From an uncultured Hungatella sp. (GTDB lineage Bacteria; Bacillota; Clostridia; Lachnospirales; Lachnospiraceae): a stretch of 36,536 bases of DNA. The notes below the pieces were generated by a model. That model made no database searches and was not told the DNA's origin. It was given only the letters and a program-made list of their open reading frames with translations. The DNA is taken from positions 1 to 36,536 of the forward strand of contig CAMUJH010000040.1 of NCBI GenBank assembly GCA_947089145.1, written 5' to 3'. How positions within the stretch are numbered: position 1 is the stretch's first letter; every line of letters begins with the position of its first letter. A program made the translations under genes and the position numbers. Below are positions 7,592-35,378 of this stretch, one piece after another.

Positions 7592-8347
7592 ATGAAAAAA
7601 CTGATTTCCTGGAATGTGAACGGATTGAGAGCCTGTGTCGGCAAAGGCTTTTTAGAATATTTTAAACAGGCGGATGCGGATATTTTTTGTATTCAGGAAA
7701 GCAAACTGCAGGAAGGGCAGATAGACCTTCCCCTGGAGGGATATTACCAGTATTGGAATTATGCCAAAAAGAAGGGATACTCGGGAACCGCCCTGTTTAC
7801 CAGGGAGAAACCGCTGTCTGTTGTCAACGGCATGGGAATCGAGGAACACGATCAGGAGGGGCGGGTTATTGCCGCCGAATATGAGGACTATTATGTTGTA
7901 ACATGCTATACCCCCAACTCCCAGGGCCAGCTGGCCCGGCTGCCATACCGCATGGAGTGGGAAGATTCATTTCTGGCATATCTGAAGAAGCTGGAAGAGA
8001 AAAAACCGGTGATTTTATGCGGCGACTTAAATGTGGCCCACAAAGAGATTGATTTAAAAAATCCAAAAACAAACCATGACAATGCCGGCTTTACAGACCA
8101 GGAGCGGGAAAAATTCACGAGGCTTCTGGAGGCAGGATTTATTGATACTTACCGCTATTTTAATCCGGATAAGGCGGAGGTTTATTCCTGGTGGTCTTAT
8201 CGGTTTAAGGCAAGGGAAAAAAATGCCGGGTGGCGTATCGACTATTTCTGCGTATCCCAGTGCCTGAGAGAGAGGCTGATCCGTGCGGAAATTCACACAG
8301 AGATTACCGGGTCGGATCACTGCCCGGTAGAATTGGTGATATCATGA
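7592..8347 (+). CDS. xth: exodeoxyribonuclease III (AP endonuclease)
   Basis: A DNA repair enzyme that cuts at abasic sites and has 3'-5' exonuclease activity. The 251-residue protein belongs to the exonuclease-endonuclease-phosphatase family: WNVNGLRA at 6-13, the metal-binding glutamate in IQESKL, GDLNVAH in the middle with the catalytic aspartate, and the C-terminal GSDHCPV with the catalytic Asp-His pair. The ATG is placed downstream of the mapped promoter. Its TGA overlaps the ATG of the next gene by four bases (ATGA), so translation is coupled and it is the first gene of a four-gene operon. Confidence 0.93.
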   Translation: MKKLISWNVNGLRACVGKGFLEYFKQADADIFCIQESKLQEGQIDLPLEGYYQYWNYAKKKGYSGTALFTREKPLSVVNGMGIEEHDQEGRVIAAEYEDYYVVTCYTPNSQGQLARLPYRMEWEDSFLAYLKKLEEKKPVILCGDLNVAHKEIDLKNPKTNHDNAGFTDQEREKFTRLLEAGFIDTYRYFNPDKAEVYSWWSYRFKAREKNAGWRIDYFCVSQCLRERLIRAEIHTEITGSDHCPVELVIS

Positions 8348-10155
8348 ATCTAATAACCATAGAACATTTAACAAAGTCGTACACAGAACGGCTGCTGTTT
8401 GACGATACAGACTTTAGCATCAACGAAGGAGAAAAAATAGGCATTATCGGCATCAACGGCACCGGCAAGTCCACGCTGCTGAAGATTGCGGCCGGGCTGG
8501 AAGAGCCGGATGGCGGAAATGTGGTGCGATGGCGGAATCTGGATATGCGCTATCTTCCCCAGAATCCGGGATTTGTGGAGGGAGATACCATATTGGAGAG
8601 CATTGTCCGGGATAATGAAGGGCATGCGCATATTTGGGATTTGGAAAGCCAGGCCAAAACCATGCTGACAAAAGTGGGCATTTTTGACTATGATGCCAAA
8701 GTAGAAACGCTTTCCGGCGGCCAGAGAAAACGGGTGGCATTAGTAAGTACGCTTATGTCAGATACAGATCTTCTCATTTTGGATGAGCCTACCAACCATC
8801 TTGACAGCCAGATGGCACAGTGGCTGGAAGAATATTTAAAAAAGTTTCGCGGTTCTGTTCTGATGATTACCCATGACAGGTATTTTCTGGACAGCGTAAC
8901 AAACCGTATTGTGGAATTGGACAAGGGGAAATTTTACAGTTATCAGGCTAACTACGAGGGATATCTGAAATTAAAGGCGGAACGCCTGGATATGGCGGCA
9001 GCCGCAGAGCGGAAACGGCAGTCCATATTAAAGGTGGAACTGGCATGGATTCAGCGGGGAGCTAGGGCGCGCTCTACCAAGCAGAAAGCCCATATCCAGA
9101 GATATGAGGCTCTCCGTGACCAGAAAGGGCCGGAGTCTGACAAAGAGGTAGAGATGGAGTCGGTTTCCAGCCGGTTAGGCAGGACTACTGTGGAGATCCA
9201 GGGACTGTGCAAAGCTTATGGAGATAAGGTGCTGGTGCGGGATTTCCAGTACATCTTCCTGAAAAATGACAGGATAGGCATCATAGGGCCTAACGGCAGC
9301 GGCAAATCGACTCTGATGAAAATGATTGCCGGATGGGAGAAACCGGATAAAGGCAGTATTGTCATTGGGCAGACCGTGAAGACAGGCTATTTTTCCCAGG
9401 AAAATGAGGACATGGATGAAAGCCTGAAAGTAATCGAATATATCAGAAACGCGGCGGAATATGTGCAGACCAGGGACGGAAGCATCAGCGCATCTCAGAT
9501 GCTGGAGCGGTTTCTCTTTCCGCCGGAGATCCAGTATACGGTGATCAGCCGCCTGTCAGGAGGGGAGAAGCGGAGATTATATCTTTTGCGGATTCTTATG
9601 GATGCTCCCAATGTGCTGCTTTTGGATGAGCCCACCAATGACTTGGATATCAGGACGCTTACTATATTAGAGGATTACCTGGACGGATTTGAGGGGATCG
9701 TTATTGCGGTATCCCATGACAGATACTTTCTGGACAGAATCGTGAACCGGATTTTTGCTTTTGAGGGTCAGGGACAAGTCGTCCAGTACGAAGGCGGATA
9801 TACGGATTACCAGGCTGCATATGAGAGAAAGTACCTGGAAGAGGGCGGGAAGGAAAGCGCAGAAAAAAGACCCGGCGAGAAAGCGCCAGGCCAGAAGGGC
9901 GGACGGGTCAGGGAGAAAAAACTTAAGTTTACTTACCAGGAACAAAAGGATTGGGAGATAATAGAGGATCAGATTCAGACATTGGAAGAAGATATAGCTG
10001 ATTTGGACAGAAAGATGGAGGCAGCAGCCAGGGATTTTGTAGAGTTAAAACGACTGATGGAAGAAAAGGAAGAAAAGGAAAAACAACTGGAAGAGAGAAT
10101 GGAGCGCTGGATGTACTTAAATGAACTGGCGGAAAGGATTGCTGCTGAGAGATAA
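8344..10155 (+). CDS. ABC-F family ATPase, Uup-like
   Basis: A 603-residue soluble protein with two ATP-binding cassettes and no membrane segment. The first has Walker A GINGTGKST (36-44), signature LSGGQRKR and Walker B LLILDEPTNHLD. The second has GPNGSGKST (about 316-324), LSGGEKRR and VLLLDEPTNDLD. Between them lies the basic inter-domain linker of ABC-F proteins. The last 60-70 residues form a charged coiled coil typical of Uup-type members. ABC-F proteins act on ribosomes or, for Uup, also in DNA transactions. Cotranscription with the repair gene xth fits a Uup-like role but does not prove it. The start is fixed by the four-base overlap with xth. Confidence 0.88.
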   Translation: MNLITIEHLTKSYTERLLFDDTDFSINEGEKIGIIGINGTGKSTLLKIAAGLEEPDGGNVVRWRNLDMRYLPQNPGFVEGDTILESIVRDNEGHAHIWDLESQAKTMLTKVGIFDYDAKVETLSGGQRKRVALVSTLMSDTDLLILDEPTNHLDSQMAQWLEEYLKKFRGSVLMITHDRYFLDSVTNRIVELDKGKFYSYQANYEGYLKLKAERLDMAAAAERKRQSILKVELAWIQRGARARSTKQKAHIQRYEALRDQKGPESDKEVEMESVSSRLGRTTVEIQGLCKAYGDKVLVRDFQYIFLKNDRIGIIGPNGSGKSTLMKMIAGWEKPDKGSIVIGQTVKTGYFSQENEDMDESLKVIEYIRNAAEYVQTRDGSISASQMLERFLFPPEIQYTVISRLSGGEKRRLYLLRILMDAPNVLLLDEPTNDLDIRTLTILEDYLDGFEGIVIAVSHDRYFLDRIVNRIFAFEGQGQVVQYEGGYTDYQAAYERKYLEEGGKESAEKRPGEKAPGQKGGRVREKKLKFTYQEQKDWEIIEDQIQTLEEDIADLDRKMEAAARDFVELKRLMEEKEEKEKQLEERMERWMYLNELAERIAAER

Positions 10156-27221: not shown

Positions 27222-27953
27222 TTAAATAGAAGAGAATACCTGAAGCGCCTTATCCTGGCAGATAACCTCATAATGTTCCACATAATAAGCTTCGCTGGCA
27301 TATTCGTGGTGAATCTTGGTTCCGTATTCGGCCAGAACGTTACATACACGGCTGAATGCCAGGGAATCGCTGCCATCGTTTTTAATGACCAGATAATATT
27401 GGGAGGTGTCCGGTTTTTTGTAAAGCGTGTTAACACCGTCAAAAAGATCCTTTACTGCCCGGGCGGCTTCCGATATCATGTCCAAGCTGTTAAAAGAATA
27501 AATCCGCAGGGAGGGGGCATCTGACGGAGACGCTGATTCATCCCCGGATAGGGTGCTGTCCGTGAGGAGGGAGGAAAGATGCTCGCCAAGCAGCTTGGAT
27601 AATCCGTCTGCGCCTTCCAGCAGTTCGTTTGCCAGATTGGACAGCATATCCGAGGGAACTTCTGAGGACGGCGAAAACTTGGAGAAACGGGTATCCAGTT
27701 CCTCCGGATCTTCGATCTTGGTAATCACCAGCATAATGCTTTCATTGGAAAGAGGAATGGCTTCCACCATCAGAGGAATATCCTCAGCTTCAAACCCCAC
27801 TTCATTAGAAGCCTTCTGAATCATTTCCCGAAACAGTCCCCGGGCCTTTTCACTTCCATAAGCCAATTCTCCCAGATTCAGGTTGCGTACGCTTAAGTCA
27901 AAGCTGGTAAGGGTGCAGCGAATCTGGTTGTCATTAATCCGTTCTATTTTCAT
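27222..27953 (-). CDS. mecA: adaptor protein MecA
   Basis: MecA delivers substrates to the ClpC unfoldase for ClpCP degradation, for example ComK in bacilli. The 243-residue protein opens with MKIERINDNQIRCTLTSFDLSVRNLNLGELAYG, the MecA N-terminal substrate-binding domain, then has an acidic/serine-rich linker (about 95-150) and the C-terminal ClpC-binding domain (YSFNSLDMISEAARAV, then LFDGVNTLYKKPDTSQYYLVI). Length is as in other MecA proteins. AAAGGAAGTG precedes the ATG. Monocistronic. Confidence 0.9.
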   Translation of the reverse strand: MKIERINDNQIRCTLTSFDLSVRNLNLGELAYGSEKARGLFREMIQKASNEVGFEAEDIPLMVEAIPLSNESIMLVITKIEDPEELDTRFSKFSPSSEVPSDMLSNLANELLEGADGLSKLLGEHLSSLLTDSTLSGDESASPSDAPSLRIYSFNSLDMISEAARAVKDLFDGVNTLYKKPDTSQYYLVIKNDGSDSLAFSRVCNVLAEYGTKIHHEYASEAYYVEHYEVICQDKALQVFSSI

Positions 27954-28133: not shown

Positions 28134-28162
28134 TTGCCAAAAAGCGTAAAATGTATTAAGAT
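28134..28162 (+). promoter_or_regulatory. promoter of the kinase/TadZ-like cluster
   Basis: TTGCCA (28134-28139), 17 bases, TAAGAT (28157-28162). Transcription would begin near 28169, leaving only about seven bases before ATG 28176 but 34 before ATA 28203. The intergenic region upstream (27954-28133) is very A/T rich and holds a repeated aaatatcaatt. Confidence 0.5.
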
Positions 28163-28175
28163 ACTACCATAAGAG

Positions 28176-29621
28176 ATGATATTGGACAAAGGAGGTGGGC
28201 GGATAGAGAACACCGTCTTGTTTGGAAAATATCAGTTAATACGTACATTAGGGCAGGGACAGAGAGGAACCGTATACCTGGCATTCCATCAGGAACTGAG
28301 AGAATACCGTGCCATTAAGCAGGTTCCTAAGTCTTCAGCCGGATATGGGCAGTTTAAAAAGGAAGCCCTTCTTCTGACTTCCTTACGTCATCCGGGGATA
28401 CCAACCGTGTACGATCTGGAAGAAGATTGCAATAACAGTTATCTCATTGAAGAATATCTTGAGGGAGATACTCTCTATGACCTGGTGAAAGACCAGGGAC
28501 ATCTGAACCGGGAAGCAGTGATCCGCATAGGAATTCAAGTCTGTGACCTGGTCCATTACCTGCATTCCGCAGAAAAAACCCCTATATTATATTTAGATTT
28601 GCAACCTAAGAATCTGTTAATTTGTCATGGATATGTGAAATTGCTGGATTTTGACCACGCAGGCCGTATTTGTGAGGCTAATGAGTCATTGTTTCGATAC
28701 GGAACCCCTGGTTTCTGTGCGCCTGAGCAAAAGGAAGGAGGCGTACTGGGAACCTATACTGATATCTATCAGATCGGAGCTCTTCTATACTATCTTTCAA
28801 CAGGGCATGTAAAGCATGGGACAGAAACCATGAGTGACAAAGCCCTTGGCAGAATCGTCGAAATCTGCGTGCGGGAAGACAAAGCCCGGCGCTATCCATC
28901 AATCCCGGAATTAAAACAGGAATTAGAAACACTGTATTCTCAAACAGGTGTTTTCAAAGAAAATCAATCATCATCTCTTATACTGGCTCTGGCAGGAAGC
29001 CGCCACGGCGTGGGAACGACACACATTGCCATAGGGCTGGCCCGATACTTAAACCGCTCTGGCTGCAAATCGCTTTACGAAGAAAGAAATTTATCAGGCG
29101 ATGTGCGTGCCATGGCGCTTCGGTGCAGAAGCGCTTTAGACTCCTATGGGATTTATCAGATAAACCAGGTGGCTGTGAAACCCTTCTACGGGGAATCTGT
29201 CTATCTGAAGCCGGTGGAATACCCGGTGGTTATCCGCGATTACGGATTGGAATGGAAAGCGGCCCAAGATGATCGGGAGGCAAAGGCATTATGGCTGATA
29301 CATGGCGGAAAATGGTGGGAGCAGGAGGCGGGCGATTTGGCAATTCATGAGCTGAGAGACTGCCGTGGATTTGCGGTGCTTTATAACCGTACTGTTCCCG
29401 GGATGAAGCCGGATTTCCCAGAAGGAGTGGATCAAACCAGGTGCCTGCAGGTGCCGGATTTCGGGAATCCATGGAAGGAGGGAAAAGACGATAAGGCTTT
29501 TTTTCAAGAAGTAATAAGGATAACAGGAGTGCTGGGCGGTGACATCGGAGCCAGGAAGAAAAGAGCCGGAAACTGGAAAAAGGCTAAACGAGGTAGAAAT
29601 GCAGGCATTTGGCATCCCTGA
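28176..29621 (+). CDS. Ser/Thr protein kinase fused to a CpaE/TadZ-like ATPase-fold domain
   Basis: Numbering runs from ATG 28176 (481 residues). Residues 15-255 are a Hanks-type kinase: glycine loop LGQGQRGTV (25-33), K48 in AIKQ, E63, catalytic D141 with K145 and N146 in LDLQPKN (HRD has become YLD), metal D158 in DFD (DFG glycine lost) and APE at 182-184. Residues 268-450 resemble MinD/ParA-fold CpaE/TadZ proteins with a deviant P-loop GSRHGVGTTH (274-283), where the usual lysines are R and T. No transmembrane segment or PASTA repeats. The Shine-Dalgarno AAAGGAGGTG lies inside the frame at 28188-28197, optimally placed for ATA 28203, so the real start may be AUA there. Followed by two related genes. 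Function unknown; regulation of a Tad-like surface or secretion system is inferred. Confidence 0.8.
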   Translation: MILDKGGGRIENTVLFGKYQLIRTLGQGQRGTVYLAFHQELREYRAIKQVPKSSAGYGQFKKEALLLTSLRHPGIPTVYDLEEDCNNSYLIEEYLEGDTLYDLVKDQGHLNREAVIRIGIQVCDLVHYLHSAEKTPILYLDLQPKNLLICHGYVKLLDFDHAGRICEANESLFRYGTPGFCAPEQKEGGVLGTYTDIYQIGALLYYLSTGHVKHGTETMSDKALGRIVEICVREDKARRYPSIPELKQELETLYSQTGVFKENQSSSLILALAGSRHGVGTTHIAIGLARYLNRSGCKSLYEERNLSGDVRAMALRCRSALDSYGIYQINQVAVKPFYGESVYLKPVEYPVVIRDYGLEWKAAQDDREAKALWLIHGGKWWEQEAGDLAIHELRDCRGFAVLYNRTVPGMKPDFPEGVDQTRCLQVPDFGNPWKEGKDDKAFFQEVIRITGVLGGDIGARKKRAGNWKKAKRGRNAGIWHP

Positions 29622-29667
29622 ATGCGTGCTGCCTAATGGGCGGCGGGACTTTTATAGTGATTAATTT

Positions 29668-30363
29668 TTGACTGTGAGAGGCGGAAGAAAGACGAAATTT
29701 TCATCAAAAGGCTTTGCCAGGAGGGGAGCAAAGCCGAGGATTACGGGGATTGCCGGAGTCGGCAGAGGGGTAGGAGCCACTCATCTTACATTGCTGGCGG
29801 CCAATTACCTGCAGAGCGTGGAGAGAAAAAGGACAGCAGTGCTGGAATGGAACAGCCATGGAGACTTCAGTCGTTTGGGAAAAATGTGTACCGGCCAGCT
29901 TCAGGATGCCTGCTGCTATCGGATTCTGAATGTGGATTATTATCCCAGGGCAGACAGCGGCAGGCTGATGGAATGCCTGGCAGGAGAATATGAAGAGATA
30001 CTTATTGACTTTGGCTCTATGAAGAAGCAAGTATGCGTAGAGCTGACAAGATGCAGTGCTGTCTGGATCGTCATGTCCTTCAGCGAGTGGCAGATGGATG
30101 CATTTTGGAAGATTGCCGAATCGGAAGGAGACGCAGAAAGAGGAAGCTGGAAATTTTTGACGGCCTTTGGCAGTGAAGAATCCAGAAAGGAGTGGAATAA
30201 AAGGCGGAAACCAGAAGTTTGGCGGATTCCATTTTCAGCAGATGCATTTACGGTTACCCGGGAGCTGATTGGGTGGATGGAGACAACACTCATGCAGGGT
30301 TCTTTTTCAGATGGTGTGTCACGGAAAAACCTTCTATGGAGAATGAAAAGGGACAGAGGTTAA
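29668..30363 (+). CDS. CpaE/TadZ-like P-loop-fold protein
   Basis: The 231-residue frame carries a MinD/CpaE-like motif GIAGVGRGVGATHLTLLAANYL near residues 28-49, in which the P-loop lysine is replaced (GVGATH), then AVLEWN in the strand that carries the second conserved residue, and EEILIDFGS (about 110-118), matching the Walker B-like strand of this fold. It is like the C-terminal domain of the upstream kinase, so the two may pair. The start is unclear: a TAA closes the frame at 29662, leaving TTG 29668 or GTG 29674 without a ribosome site, while AGGAGGGG occurs inside the frame at 29719-29726. It lies 46 bases after the kinase gene and 19 bases before the next gene. Confidence 0.7.
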   Translation: MTVRGGRKTKFSSKGFARRGAKPRITGIAGVGRGVGATHLTLLAANYLQSVERKRTAVLEWNSHGDFSRLGKMCTGQLQDACCYRILNVDYYPRADSGRLMECLAGEYEEILIDFGSMKKQVCVELTRCSAVWIVMSFSEWQMDAFWKIAESEGDAERGSWKFLTAFGSEESRKEWNKRRKPEVWRIPFSADAFTVTRELIGWMETTLMQGSFSDGVSRKNLLWRMKRDRG

Positions 30364-30382
30364 AAACGGAGGAGAAGATTGG

Positions 30383-30607
30383 ATGGAAGGGTACAGTGCA
30401 GAGGAGCAGAGGCAGTACGTAGATGGATTAAGGCGGTTTGAATCCAAAGGCATCCCGATATACATAGACGGGGTGATAGCAGAAGACAAGGACTGGGCTA
30501 AGATTTTCCAGGTAAGGGAAGACGGGGCTTTTTATATGTGCGACTACATAGGAGGTGAAGAGGGAACTTTAAAGGAAATCCATTTTGATCGGGTCTATAA
30601 CCGTTAA
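30383..30607 (+). CDS. small acidic protein, third gene of the kinase/TadZ-like cluster
   Basis: I do not recognise a named family. The 74-residue soluble protein begins with a helical YSAEEQRQYVDGLRRFESKG, continues with IPIYIDGVIAEDKDWAKIF, and ends in an acidic beta-rich segment (GAFYMCDYIGGEEGTLKEIHFDRV). GGAGGAG lies 8 bases before the ATG, a far better ribosome site than those of the two genes upstream. It is probably cotranscribed with them. No membrane segment or catalytic motif. Confidence 0.75.
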   Translation: MEGYSAEEQRQYVDGLRRFESKGIPIYIDGVIAEDKDWAKIFQVREDGAFYMCDYIGGEEGTLKEIHFDRVYNR

Positions 30608-30797: not shown

Positions 30798-30834
30798 GGT
30801 GCCAGGCGGTTTGCTGCCTGGCGCCATGTTTTTT
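30798..30834 (+). terminator. Rho-independent terminator downstream of the kinase cluster
   Basis: ggtgccaggc pairs with gcctggcgcc (one G-T pair), 8-base loop, then atg and six T. Confidence 0.7.
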
Positions 30835-30937: not shown

Positions 30938-32599
30938 TTGAAAGAAAAACGGATTCCAATTTTTATGGCCATAGCGCTGATTATCCTGGTGGCAGTAGCC
31001 ATTGCAGGCTGGTGGGCGGTTAGCCGGCTTATGCCTACGAAGGAACCTGCAGACTTAGGGCAGGTGCTGGGGGTCAGCGGTGAGGAGACAGCAGTTTTTT
31101 TTAATGAAGAACCGCAGAAGATAAGGGGGATCACCAGGGACGGCCAGACATATTTGCCCCTTCAGTGGGTCAACAGCTCGGTCAATGAGAAATTTTACTG
31201 GGATGATACGGAAAAACTCCTGGTGTATGCACTTCCTGATACCATCGTTTATGCAGACAAGCGGACTGCAGGCAGCACAGGTGCCCCGCTTCTGCTTTTA
31301 GAGGGAGATGAAGTTTACTTATCCATGGGCCTGATCAACAACTATACGGCAGTGGATACGGACAGTTACACGGACGGAGAATATAAACGGATCTATCTGG
31401 ACAACCGGTGGGAACCTTTCCGCACGGGCACTGCGGATAAGCGGTCAGCAGTCAGGGTGGAACCCAGTATTAAGAGCCCGGTGCTGACTTATGTGGACAA
31501 AGGCGGGAATATAGTTATTCTGGAGGAACTGGAGGAATGGACGAAGGTTCGGACAGATGACGGACATACAGGATATCTGAAAAATAAGATTATTAAAGAT
31601 ATAAAAAACCAGGAGCATCCGTGCACTGCAGAACTTCCGGAGTACACCAATATTTCCATGGACGAGAAGGTGTGCCTTGTGTGGCATCAGGTAACTGGCG
31701 ATAACGCCAATGACGCTATGGAGCAGCTGATTGCCAACACTTCAGGGGTTAATGTCATTGCTCCCACCTGGTTTGCCCTGACAGATAATAACGGTACATA
31801 CCACTCCTATGCCAGCCGCAGCTATGTAGATAAGGCTCACAGCATGGGTATGCAGGTGTGGGCGGCGCTGGATAATTTTAACATGGGGGAAAATGTAAAT
31901 TCCGAGATCCTTTTTGCAAAGACATCGGTCCGCAAGAAACTGATCAGTTCTCTTATGGAAGATGTAAAGACTTATGATCTGGATGGAATCAACTTGGATA
32001 TTGAAGGAATAAGGCCGGAGGCAGGCCCCCATTACGTCGAGTTCATTCGGGAACTGTCAGTATCCTGCCGCAGGGAGGGAATTATCCTCTCAGTAGATAA
32101 CTATGTTCCGGCCGGATACAATGCCTTTTACAACCGGGCGGAGCAGGGACGGGTGGCAGACTATGTGATCATTATGGGGTATGATGAGCATCATGCCGGA
32201 GGAGAAGCCGGATCGGTGGCATCCTACAATTTTGTGAAGGAAGGAATCAGAAATACTCTGGAGCAGGTTCCCAAGGAAAAGGTAATCAATGCGGTGCCGT
32301 TCTATACCAGAATCTGGACAGAAAAGAACGGTGAAACCACAGCATCCGCCATGGGGATTAAAGATGCCTTGGAATGGGTTGAAGAAAACGATGTGGAATT
32401 GTACTGGCAGGAAGAATTGGGACAGTACTATGGAGAACTTGACTCAGAAGAGGGGCTGAAACAGGTTTGGATGGAGGAAGCCACTTCTTTGGGCCTGAAA
32501 ATGGATCTTATCAGGGAACATGATTTGGCCGGAGTAGGGTGCTGGAAGCTGGGATTCGAGCCGGCATCGATCTGGGACGTGGTAAAAGTAAACGAATAG
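30938..32599 (+). CDS. membrane-anchored SH3-GH18 glycoside hydrolase
   Basis: The 553-residue protein has one N-terminal membrane anchor (about 8-30), a domain resembling copper-amine-oxidase-like N-terminal modules (TAVFFNEEPQKIRGITRDGQTYLPLQWV, about 50-155), a bacterial SH3 domain (about 165-222) and a GH18 barrel (about 245-550). The chitinase-family motif DGINLDIE (349-356) has the catalytic E356, and IIMGYDEHH and GVGCWKLGFE fit later strands. Such enzymes (YaaH/YdhD-like) cut peptidoglycan or related amino-sugar polymers. It starts at TTG 30938 with an overlong AAGGAGGAGG site. A lipoprotein metallophosphoesterase gene follows 16 bases on. Confidence 0.88.
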   Translation: MKEKRIPIFMAIALIILVAVAIAGWWAVSRLMPTKEPADLGQVLGVSGEETAVFFNEEPQKIRGITRDGQTYLPLQWVNSSVNEKFYWDDTEKLLVYALPDTIVYADKRTAGSTGAPLLLLEGDEVYLSMGLINNYTAVDTDSYTDGEYKRIYLDNRWEPFRTGTADKRSAVRVEPSIKSPVLTYVDKGGNIVILEELEEWTKVRTDDGHTGYLKNKIIKDIKNQEHPCTAELPEYTNISMDEKVCLVWHQVTGDNANDAMEQLIANTSGVNVIAPTWFALTDNNGTYHSYASRSYVDKAHSMGMQVWAALDNFNMGENVNSEILFAKTSVRKKLISSLMEDVKTYDLDGINLDIEGIRPEAGPHYVEFIRELSVSCRREGIILSVDNYVPAGYNAFYNRAEQGRVADYVIIMGYDEHHAGGEAGSVASYNFVKEGIRNTLEQVPKEKVINAVPFYTRIWTEKNGETTASAMGIKDALEWVEENDVELYWQEELGQYYGELDSEEGLKQVWMEEATSLGLKMDLIREHDLAGVGCWKLGFEPASIWDVVKVNE

Positions 32600-34130: not shown

Positions 34131-34748
34131 CTACTGTGTATTTAAATATTCCATGATGCCCATATGAATGGTCCATGCCAGACGGTCTTGGTATTCCTCT
34201 GTATTCAACAGGGCGGCTTCGTTTTTGTTGCTTAAAAATCCGCACTCCACAATCACAATAGGGGAACGGACATGGAGAAGGAGATAATAGTTGTCATTGG
34301 CTTTTGCAGTGCGCCGGTTATTCTCTCCTAGGACGAAGTCAAATCGCTTCTGCAGGATTTCCGCAAGGAGTTTTCCCTGCTGGGAATCTTTATAGTAGAA
34401 TACCTGACCGCCGCTTATAGGCTCCTGATGGTAACTGTTTTGGTGAATGCTGACTGTAAGAACAGGCGAAGCCTGGTTAATAAGGCTGCATCGCCCTTTC
34501 ATGTCAGCCATTTTCTTGTTGCCGTCACCGCTGTCGTACAAACCTGCGTCGCCGTCCCTGGTCATAATCACTGTCACATCGGACTTTTCCAGGTAGTCCT
34601 TTAGCTTTCGTGCAATCTGCAGATTTATGTCCTTTTCCAGACTGCCGTCAATGCCGATTTTTCCGGGGTCCCTTCCTCCATGTCCGGGGGGCGGGAACAG
34701 ACCAAAATAGTATTCGCTTAGTTTCCTCCCTTTTCCAGGGACTCCCAT
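34131..34748 (-). CDS. N-acetylmuramoyl-L-alanine amidase (Amidase_3, CwlD-like), 5'-truncated
   Basis: Amidase_3 enzymes cut the bond between muramic acid and the stem peptide. The zinc residues H23 (PGHGG), E38 (LEKDINL) and H102 (SIHQN) and the catalytic E168 (IVECGFLSN) are present, and the C-terminus is complete. The N-terminus is not: the usual signal peptide and VxLDPGHGG lead-in are replaced by the 18-20 residues before PPPGHGG, which are encoded in the 3' end and stop region of the PIN gene (34718-34748) in another frame. The first ATG lies inside the PIN gene with no ribosome site of its own. I read this as a gene that lost its 5' part to insertion of the element on the right. If translated it would stay in the cytosol. 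Confidence 0.75.
   Translation of the reverse strand: MGVPGKGRKLSEYYFGLFPPPGHGGRDPGKIGIDGSLEKDINLQIARKLKDYLEKSDVTVIMTRDGDAGLYDSGDGNKKMADMKGRCSLINQASPVLTVSIHQNSYHQEPISGGQVFYYKDSQQGKLLAEILQKRFDFVLGENNRRTAKANDNYYLLLHVRSPIVIVECGFLSNKNEAALLNTEEYQDRLAWTIHMGIMEYLNTQ
34686..34720. other. probable left junction (attachment site) of the inserted element
   Basis: Amidase homology starts at PGHGG (34685 on the minus strand) and the PIN gene stops at 34718, so the break between core gene and accessory DNA must lie in about 35 bases. The interval contains a C-rich run (gcgggaacag beside ccggggggcg). The crossover bases cannot be identified without the right-hand junction. Confidence 0.45.
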
Positions 34749-35152
34749 TCCTTCAAAAAATCTTCCGGGGTTACTGCAGGTACAGAAGAACTTGAAAAAT
34801 CCTTTACATTTCTGGTAATAATTCTGTCAACATCATAGCTGATCGCACATTCCATCTGTAAACAATCTTCAAAATCATCAAAATTTCTATTCTGAATTGC
34901 GGACAAAATCTTTTCTCTGTTAATCGGATCAATATCGAAAATAGCACACAGAGCTAAAATTACCTGCCTTCGCATGTTAATATCCATAGTCTTTCTTAAA
35001 ATATAAAAAAGGTTAGGAATGGTATGTGCTGCCAAAACACCTTCTATTTTTTTATCTGCACAAAGCTTGATAATTTTATCGGCATTATGAAAATATTCTT
35101 TCCTCCCCATCAAGTCATCTAAAATAACGTTTGTATCAACTAATACCTTCAT
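34718..35152 (-). CDS. PIN domain toxin (VapC-like)
   Basis: PIN toxins are Mg-dependent ribonucleases that cut tRNA, rRNA or mRNA when free of antitoxin. The 144-residue protein has D6 in LVDTNVILDD, a central acidic pair in FDDFEDCLQ (D93, D96) and D118 in RNVKDF, so the acidic site appears intact. It starts at ATG 35152, 17 bases inside the end of the upstream small gene, the usual overlap of a toxin-antitoxin pair. Part of the inserted block. Confidence 0.85.
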   Translation of the reverse strand: MKVLVDTNVILDDLMGRKEYFHNADKIIKLCADKKIEGVLAAHTIPNLFYILRKTMDINMRRQVILALCAIFDIDPINREKILSAIQNRNFDDFEDCLQMECAISYDVDRIITRNVKDFSSSSVPAVTPEDFLKEWESLEKGGN

Positions 35153-35378
35153 ACTTTTCCTCCAATGCCTGCTCCAGTTCTGCTTTATAATCAACCTCCT
35201 GCAGCCCTTCTTTTCTATATTTTTGTAAATTCTGGTATGCACGTTGAGACACAGACTTCTCATCTTCCTGGCTTATGCACAGCCCCTCTAATCCTTCTAA
35301 AATACGAACGACAAATACCACTTTATCATCAGGAAGCTTTTGAATAATATCGAATGCACGTTTTTTTATTTGAGTCAT
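35136..35378 (-). CDS. putative antitoxin of the PIN pair
   Basis: An 80-residue protein starting MTQIKKRAFDIIQKLPDDKVVFVVRILEGLEGL, a pattern shared by antitoxin-like proteins of the DUF2281/VapB-like type in Firmicutes, followed by an acidic helical tail that likely wraps the toxin. ATG 35378 follows AAGGAGAG; an in-frame TTG at 35399 precedes that ribosome site and is rejected. Antitoxin first, toxin second, overlapping, is the standard order. Confidence 0.75.
   Translation of the reverse strand: MTQIKKRAFDIIQKLPDDKVVFVVRILEGLEGLCISQEDEKSVSQRAYQNLQKYRKEGLQEVDYKAELEQALEEKYEGIS

Follow-up and report, generated by a model that had tools for sequence, protein, structure and literature searches.

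A Hanks-type kinase joined to a P-loop domain and its TadZ-like partner in Lachnospiraceae: a candidate control module

The family Lachnospiraceae contains a conserved pair of genes, one encoding a Hanks-type kinase joined to a C-terminal P-loop domain and the other a separate TadZ-like P-loop protein (TZ2). The pair was analysed in a stretch of 36,536 nucleotides (the window) of contig CAMUJH010000040.1 (assembly GCA_947089145.1) from an uncultured Hungatella sp. of this family. The kinase retains its catalytic residues, the two P-loop domains are homologous by profile comparison, the gene order is kept over many genera, and the module is counted in 78 of the 299 family genomes. A link of the pair to pilus machines is supported indirectly, by CpaB-like genes at the loci of some relatives and by a Tad-like operon that begins with a similar fusion. 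The favoured explanation, which is held tentatively, is that the kinase is kept at an envelope machine by the TadZ-like pair.

The fusion protein and its P-loop partner

The open reading frame (ORF) at 28176-29621 encodes 481 residues, comprising a Pkinase domain and then a C-terminal domain without a Pfam model, and the ORF at 29668-30363 encodes the 231 residues of TZ2, which has no Pfam match. The features of the pair are as follows.

28203..29621, plus strand: kinase-P-loop fusion gene; probable start ATA at 28203, the listed ORF starting at ATG 28176
28230..28937, plus strand: Hanks-type kinase domain, ORF residues 19-254 (Pfam Pkinase, E 4.6e-36)
28977..29520, plus strand: C-terminal P-loop domain with the deviant Walker A motif GSRHGVGTTH, without the Walker lysine
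29517..29618, plus strand: basic C-terminal tail of the fusion, 34 amino acids, net charge +9, read from the sequence
29692..30363, plus strand: TZ2, a predicted ParA/MinD-fold P-loop protein; probable start ACG at 29692, the listed ORF starting at TTG 29668

Judged by its sequence, the N-terminal part of the fusion is a Hanks-type Ser/Thr kinase domain with the catalytic Lys, Glu and Asp and the Mg-binding Asp. Across 69 aligned rows (gapped rows set aside in each count, and two rows being pieces of one broken kinase), K48 is kept in 66/66, E63 in 67/67, D141 and D158 each in 68/68, and N146 in 56/68. The Arg of the HRD motif is replaced by Leu in 61 of 68 rows and the Gly of DFG by Asp in 27 of 68, the window being included in both groups. 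The broken kinase belongs to locus L066, where the fusion gene is split into two ORFs (8028-9458).

The P-loops read GVGTTH in the fusion and GVGATH in TZ2, exactly as the original prediction had reported for its two proteins. Compared as profiles of 40 sequences each (hhalign), the fusion domain and TZ2 matched with 99.85% probability and an E-value of 1.2e-30, by which the former is a homologue of the latter; the claim of a second, related P-loop protein is thereby borne out. The TZ2 profile found ParA-type PDB chains (3k9g, E 9.2e-4). Moreover, an AlphaFold2 model of TZ2, built on the window protein and seven relatives (predicted local distance difference test, pLDDT, 70.5; predicted template modelling score, pTM, 0.70), has the ParA/MinD fold, with structural matches to ParA (Z 15.7), FleN (15.5), BcsQ (15.0), 3fkq (a two-domain E. 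rectale protein, 14.9) and MinD (14.6). With many rows less than one Z apart, the structural match list (VIA-align) does not resolve the ParA/MinD subfamily of TZ2.

A profile of five TadZ proteins from Tad loci matched both 3fkq (E 1.1e-25) and TZ2 (96%, E 3.9e-9), and in a comparison with 14 TadZ rows the probabilities were 96% for TZ2 and 83% for the fusion domain. TZ2 is a TadZ-like protein of the ParA/MinD fold, its kinship being drawn from profile comparison and fold. Neither P-loop domain passes the Pfam or NCBIfam TadZ models, and CpaE_hom_Actino gave weak matches, far below its cut-off, for the fusion and for the TZ2 of loci L092 and L098. The receiver-like N-terminal domain (TadZ-like_ARD) had no match in TZ2 or the fusion in the Pfam scan; only 23 residues precede the first strand in the TZ2 model, and the TadZ of the window's own genome matched this domain weakly (24.0 bits against 27.4). 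The predicted fusion of a kinase with a CpaE/TadZ-like domain of ParA/MinD fold holds for the Pkinase and P-loop parts, while the TadZ kinship of the fused domain comes through its profile match and its homology to TZ2, and its fold through that homology.

The deviant Walker A motif of ParA/MinD proteins carries a lysine (KGGxGKT/S). This Walker lysine was found in 0/40 TZ2 and 0/40 fusion domains, which keep the Walker G in 80/80 and the T in 79/80, and it is kept in 12 of 14 TadZ rows from Tad loci. Neither P-loop domain may hydrolyse ATP, and the simple reading of the pair as a positioning ATPase is unsupported because the lysine is absent in all 80 domains.

Gene neighbourhood and start codons

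Several sequence features and genes flank the pair in the window.

27222..27953, minus strand: MecA (ClpC adaptor family; Pfam MecA, E 3e-63), a divergent neighbour and conserved flank
28190..28197, plus strand: Shine-Dalgarno AGGAGGTG, within the ATG-started kinase ORF
30383..30607, plus strand: small protein of 74 amino acids, no family, from an alignment of 27 members
30798..30825, plus strand: terminator-like hairpin of 12 pairs (9 G-C) followed by a T run, the longest stem of five
30938..32599, plus strand: SH3-GH18 protein with a hydrophobic N-terminus (Pfam Glyco_hydro_18, E 1.2e-20)
34131-35263, minus strand: Amidase_3 (CwlD-like) gene, adjoining a PIN-domain gene (PIN_3)

In the set of 299 family genomes, the TZ2 profile matched 84, and 78 are taken as module-bearing after six whose matches seemingly lie elsewhere (G106, G148, G162, G178, G188 and G241) were set aside; the loci were inspected in part. 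Fusion matches at E <=1e-30 occurred in 136 of the 299, many being matches of the kinase domain only, in longer frames. One scan of genome contigs gave seven loci, six from titled Hungatella or Clostridiaceae isolates and one from an uncultured Hungatella. Neighbourhoods were counted in these seven loci and in 60 regions chosen on the kinase match only, each count being limited to loci with enough flank. TZ2 lies after the kinase in 56/66 loci. This count is low, as the ORF picking missed L044, L055, L057, L058 and L077, in which the TZ2 profile matches; L082, L095, L097 and L100 are without a separate TZ2, and their kinase seemingly carries a TZ2-type domain (three by tree; L082 with 172 bits). 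Among the 62 loci that offer 2.5 kb or more ahead of the kinase, 58 have MecA upstream, and GH18 is downstream in all 60 with at least 6 kb. The small gene was found at 36/61 module loci, a CpaB-like gene at 14/61, and a CwlD-like gene on the kinase strand at 38/59, the window's CwlD being on the opposite strand. MecA is a conserved flank and stands outside the mechanism proposed below. The hydrophobic N-terminus of the SH3-GH18 protein may be a membrane anchor.

The same neighbourhood also exists without the pair. GH18 was present in 78 of 80 genomes tried, namely 10/10 with the module and 68/70 without it. Among 20 regions around GH18, 19 lacked the kinase and TZ2, and of these 17 had MecA nearby and nine the small gene. 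Eleven of the 19 had been chosen for GH18 and DUF6382 lying 12-35 kb apart on one contig, so they give no frequency measure; in these (L172-L181 and L183), which lack the kinase-TZ2 pair, tad genes occur within a few kb of MecA, GH18 and a CwlD-like gene. Since nine of the 19 module-free loci keep the small gene, the small protein is conserved with GH18 and not with the kinase; no Pfam match better than E 0.028 was obtained among its 27 members. The small gene and GH18 thus make up a separate neighbourhood; the kinase-TZ2 pair either fits into it or has been lost from it. A fixed trio including the small protein, as originally proposed, was rejected, and what stands of the predicted gene order is the pair with its MecA and GH18 flanks. 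Of the transcription signals proposed for the trio, the promoter at 28134 is one of five found where shuffled sequences give 4.4 (standard deviation 2.2), which is chance level, and the strongest terminator-like site, one of five in the region against 2.9 expected (standard deviation 1.6), is the hairpin at 30798-30825, outside the predicted range of 28134..30607. A phage link was rejected, the one scan of viral contigs (A5) having given no relative.

Both the kinase and TZ2 appear to start at near-cognate codons (AUA/AUC/AUU and ACG, respectively). The kinase probably starts at ATA 28203, because the Shine-Dalgarno AGGAGGTG lies inside the ATG-started ORF and recurs in relatives, and TZ2 probably starts at ACG 29692; the two window sites, each with a near-cognate codon behind a Shine-Dalgarno, span 28190-28205 and 29679-29694. 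In 27 of the 69 kinase rows, a script located such a Shine-Dalgarno ahead of the point where the conserved kinase domain begins. In 14 of these, only ATA, ATC or ATT occurs within 14 nucleotides, without ATG, GTG or TTG; seven have a canonical codon, which in three is a GTG 1 nucleotide behind the Shine-Dalgarno core, with ATC, ATT or ATA 7 nucleotides behind; and six have neither codon type, L060 and L066 having ACG at 5-6 nucleotides. An in-frame stop lies between the Shine-Dalgarno and the codon in L005, L009, L044 and L066, and an ATG stands one codon earlier in L004, L051 and L054, whose codon is not AUH. Four loci (L049, L052, L053 and L056) do not fit the near-cognate interpretation, and L047 has its ATA only at 11 nucleotides, which also speaks against it.

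For TZ2, the codon 27 positions before GxTH in 49 rows with the motif is ATG in nine, ACG in six (window included) and another codon in 34, so that TZ2 starts elsewhere in those 34; in L005 and L006 no canonical TZ2 start precedes the P-loop, the one exception being a GTG that lies inside it. As a control, long ORFs from 28 sources were taken in which a perfect AGGAGG lies close to the start; near-cognate codons alone stood behind it in 14/20 kinase fusions versus 3/33 other genes. Under a laxer Shine-Dalgarno definition, the corresponding counts were 4/64 for GH18, 1/33 for the small gene and 9/55 for TZ2. Near-cognate starts kept over several genera would be of separate interest for translation control.

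Links to Tad-like machines and rival explanations

In agreement with the original prediction, no pilus gene was found in the window: no T2SSE ATPase, DUF6382 or CpaB-like match was found on the contig or among the 17 window proteins scanned, which also gave no match to WXG100 or EssC. Elsewhere in the same genome, T2SSE was above its cut-off on contigs 13 and 86, and contig 13 carries a Tad locus that encodes DUF5702 and DUF6382-FHA proteins. An FHA reader for the kinase is therefore present in this genome and might act jointly with it. In addition, contig 86 (locus L042 of genome G000) holds a second TadZ-TadA pair, in which the TadA ORF is shortened next to a 556-amino-acid ORF that we take to be recombinase-like. 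The names TadB, TadC, TadE and TadG in locus L041 are our assumption from gene order and length only.

Two CpaB-like proteins of relatives matched the CpaB model below its cut-off (E 3.7e-4 and 1.3e-3); the profile of their family found the FlgA structure 3frn at 9.1e-4 and matched 40 of the 299 genomes, the window's genome not being among them. Of the tad genes that the original prediction had suggested looking for, near the pair or elsewhere in the genomes, a CpaB-like gene is present in a minority of loci and a Tad locus lies elsewhere in the window's genome. In a class-wide sample of Clostridia, the TZ2 profile matched 33 of 245 genomes. Fourteen of these regions were fetched: eight hold fusions of a further family, f9 (L136-L142 and L145), one more (L144) belongs with the modules of the window's family, and the other five matched the P-loop profiles but gave nothing in a phmmer comparison with the window's fusion. 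All eight f9 loci have a Tad-like operon headed by the kinase-P-loop fusion; next come a CpaB-like gene, a 220- and a 270-amino-acid gene, a TadA-like ATPase, a 675-amino-acid gene and small genes. Family scans covered two of the eight operons. In L139, a SAF domain was over its cut-off (E 1.3e-5), with a 268-amino-acid protein matching AAA_31 (E 2.9e-3) and the ATPase matching the TadA family (E 4.2e-12), both below cut-off; in L136, the CpaB-like protein had no CpaB match and the ATPase matched T2SSE at E 3.1e-3. The CpaB-like profiles of the window's family and of f9 match at 100% (E 3.7e-58). No name for the f9 operon was found, and the pilin-like and similar gene names used in L136-L145 are presumptive labels.

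TZ2-like domains were also seen in proteins of 370-590 amino acids (L103 at 7993, L109 at 8807, L110 at 9275, L112 at 8712 and L114 at 8848); the genes beside such proteins in L103-L115 are presumably of conjugative-element or VirB4-like type. In L135 (5250-6644), a TZ2-like P-loop protein follows several proteins of about 100 amino acids, which we take to be WXG100-like, as in type VII secretion variants.

In the mechanism favoured here, a soluble Hanks-type kinase would be tethered through its ParA/MinD-fold domain to the homologous TZ2, the two probably forming a pseudo-heterodimer like the sandwich dimers of ParA/MinD proteins. In some relatives, the membrane protein encoded next to the pair, with its CpaB/SAF-like domain, may anchor it to a Tad-type envelope machine; the kinase would then phosphorylate a machine component on site and so switch assembly or activity, with FHA proteins from Tad loci as possible readers. 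In the window's lineage, where no CpaB-like gene was found, the pair might work in trans, or it might have taken on a new use at the envelope next to GH18. The basic tail of the fusion could make membrane contact; the idea that it replaces the absent CpaB was not retained beyond a weak tendency, a tail of at least 20 residues with a charge of at least +5 occurring in 30/55 CpaB-less versus 3/14 CpaB-bearing rows (69 rows including the two pieces of the L066 kinase; Mann-Whitney p 0.035, kinship uncorrected). Dimer, membrane site, phosphorylation target and function in the window's organism are conjectural parts of this proposal, as would be any phosphorylation control of positioning.

Several observations weigh against this explanation. 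The fusion-domain profile has only weak PDB matches (best E 0.22), AlphaFold2 gave no usable model of the fusion from eight rows (pLDDT 38.6, pTM 0.29), and the fused domain resembles TadZ less than TZ2 does. An ATP-driven positioning cycle is doubtful because of the missing Walker lysine. The trees are quick builds that took roughly every other row from the sets of the family (57 kinase rows; 87 of 146 P-loop rows), with Shimodaira-Hasegawa-like approximate likelihood ratio (SH-aLRT) values as the sole support. The f9 P-loop falls on the TZ2 side of a P-loop tree whose deep support is weak, and the kinase tree groups the fusion kinases of the family in a single clade, separate from the f9 fusions and also from longer kinases that these genomes encode (15 of which we call 'PASTA' kinases by assumption, the label not coming from a domain scan); the kinase tree thus does not demonstrate one common origin for both fusions. 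The Tad locus of the window's genome is on another contig than the pair, and co-occurrence with Tad was rejected as evidence, since DUF6382 is near-universal in the family (288/299). Finally, membrane contact of the pair and a substrate of its kinase are conjectural.

Other explanations have to be weighed on the same data. The pair might regulate the neighbouring wall enzymes, GH18 and the CwlD-like amidase, during sporulation or division for instance, with no present link to a filament. The constant presence of GH18 downstream and the frequent CwlD-like gene on the same strand would suit such control, and SpoIVA is commoner with the module (63/78 versus 131/221; Fisher p 5e-4, kinship uncorrected). 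GH18 is nonetheless independent of the pair, being nearly as regular in module-free genomes, and 15 of the 78 module genomes have no SpoIVA match, including G185 (one contig, 100% complete), G110 and G197 (both 99%). A strict sporulation link was rejected on this ground, and wall-enzyme control as such is considered unlikely. It appears rather more improbable that the P-loop domains are dimerisation or sensing switches of the kinase, without a positioning role and with the substrate elsewhere. Loss of the Walker lysine throughout, compared with its retention in most TadZ of Tad loci, alongside conserved kinase residues, is what such switches would lead one to expect; the association with CpaB-like genes and a Tad-like operon, together with the TadZ-like fold and profile match of TZ2, argues against a pure switch role. 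Very improbable is a relic, in which the pair would be the decaying remnant of the first part of a Tad-like operon whose motor and pilins are gone. The 47 of 61 loci without a CpaB-like gene, the broken kinase ORF of L066 and the low identity among distant P-loop domains could be read in this way, but the kinase catalytic residues are intact in nearly all rows and the gene order is kept over many genera, which does not resemble decay.

Retention of the kinase at an envelope machine remains the favoured explanation. A broader proposal, which we regard as doubtful, is that of a new control module for envelope machines in which one of the two partners in a TadZ-like pseudo-ATPase pair contains a Hanks kinase, so that the landmark protein of the machine delivers the kinase, the dose of the module being held down by near-cognate starts; such a module would have become detached from a Tad-like operon and settled at a single chromosomal site in much of Lachnospiraceae.

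Relation to known systems

Kinases near secretion and pilus loci are known. Among the ParA/MinD-like partners of surface machines, such as BcsQ, FleN and FlhG, we know of none that carries a kinase. Literature searches, mostly at listing level, returned no description of a kinase-TadZ-like fusion module, and the word 'kinase' is absent from the available parts of three pilus papers (PMC6668835, PMC3244431 and PMC6916266). The module occurs in roughly one in four of the genera that represent the family here (78/299 genomes).

Compared with PknB/Stk1-type PASTA kinases, the fusion shows a likeness in the kinase domain (NCBIfam E 3e-33, with 115.7 bits far below the cut-off of 450), but it has no PASTA match in the Pfam scan and no obvious membrane segment by sequence, and its kinases form a separate clade. 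In type VII secretion variants, TsfV (TadZ-like) and TsfJ/TseJ (DUF6382-FHA) are proposed parts of Gram-positive machines, several of which include kinases, according to the parts available of PMC11217815. In those parts the kinase (TscD) is described as a membrane protein in its own right, or there is none (T7SSf), whereas here kinase and TadZ-like domain form one chain. With TadZ/CpaE of Tad (type IVc) pili, the module shares the ParA/MinD fold of TZ2, the 96% profile match and, in relatives, the genomic link to CpaB-like and TadA-like genes. It differs in lacking the receiver-like N-terminal domain, the Walker lysine and pilus genes at the locus, and in having one copy joined to a kinase. 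With a kinase as part of a ParA/MinD-fold partner, phosphorylation would be bound to a particular location within the cell, and the presence of the pair at the same chromosomal place in many relatives suggests a so far undescribed phosphorylation control of a cell-surface machine.
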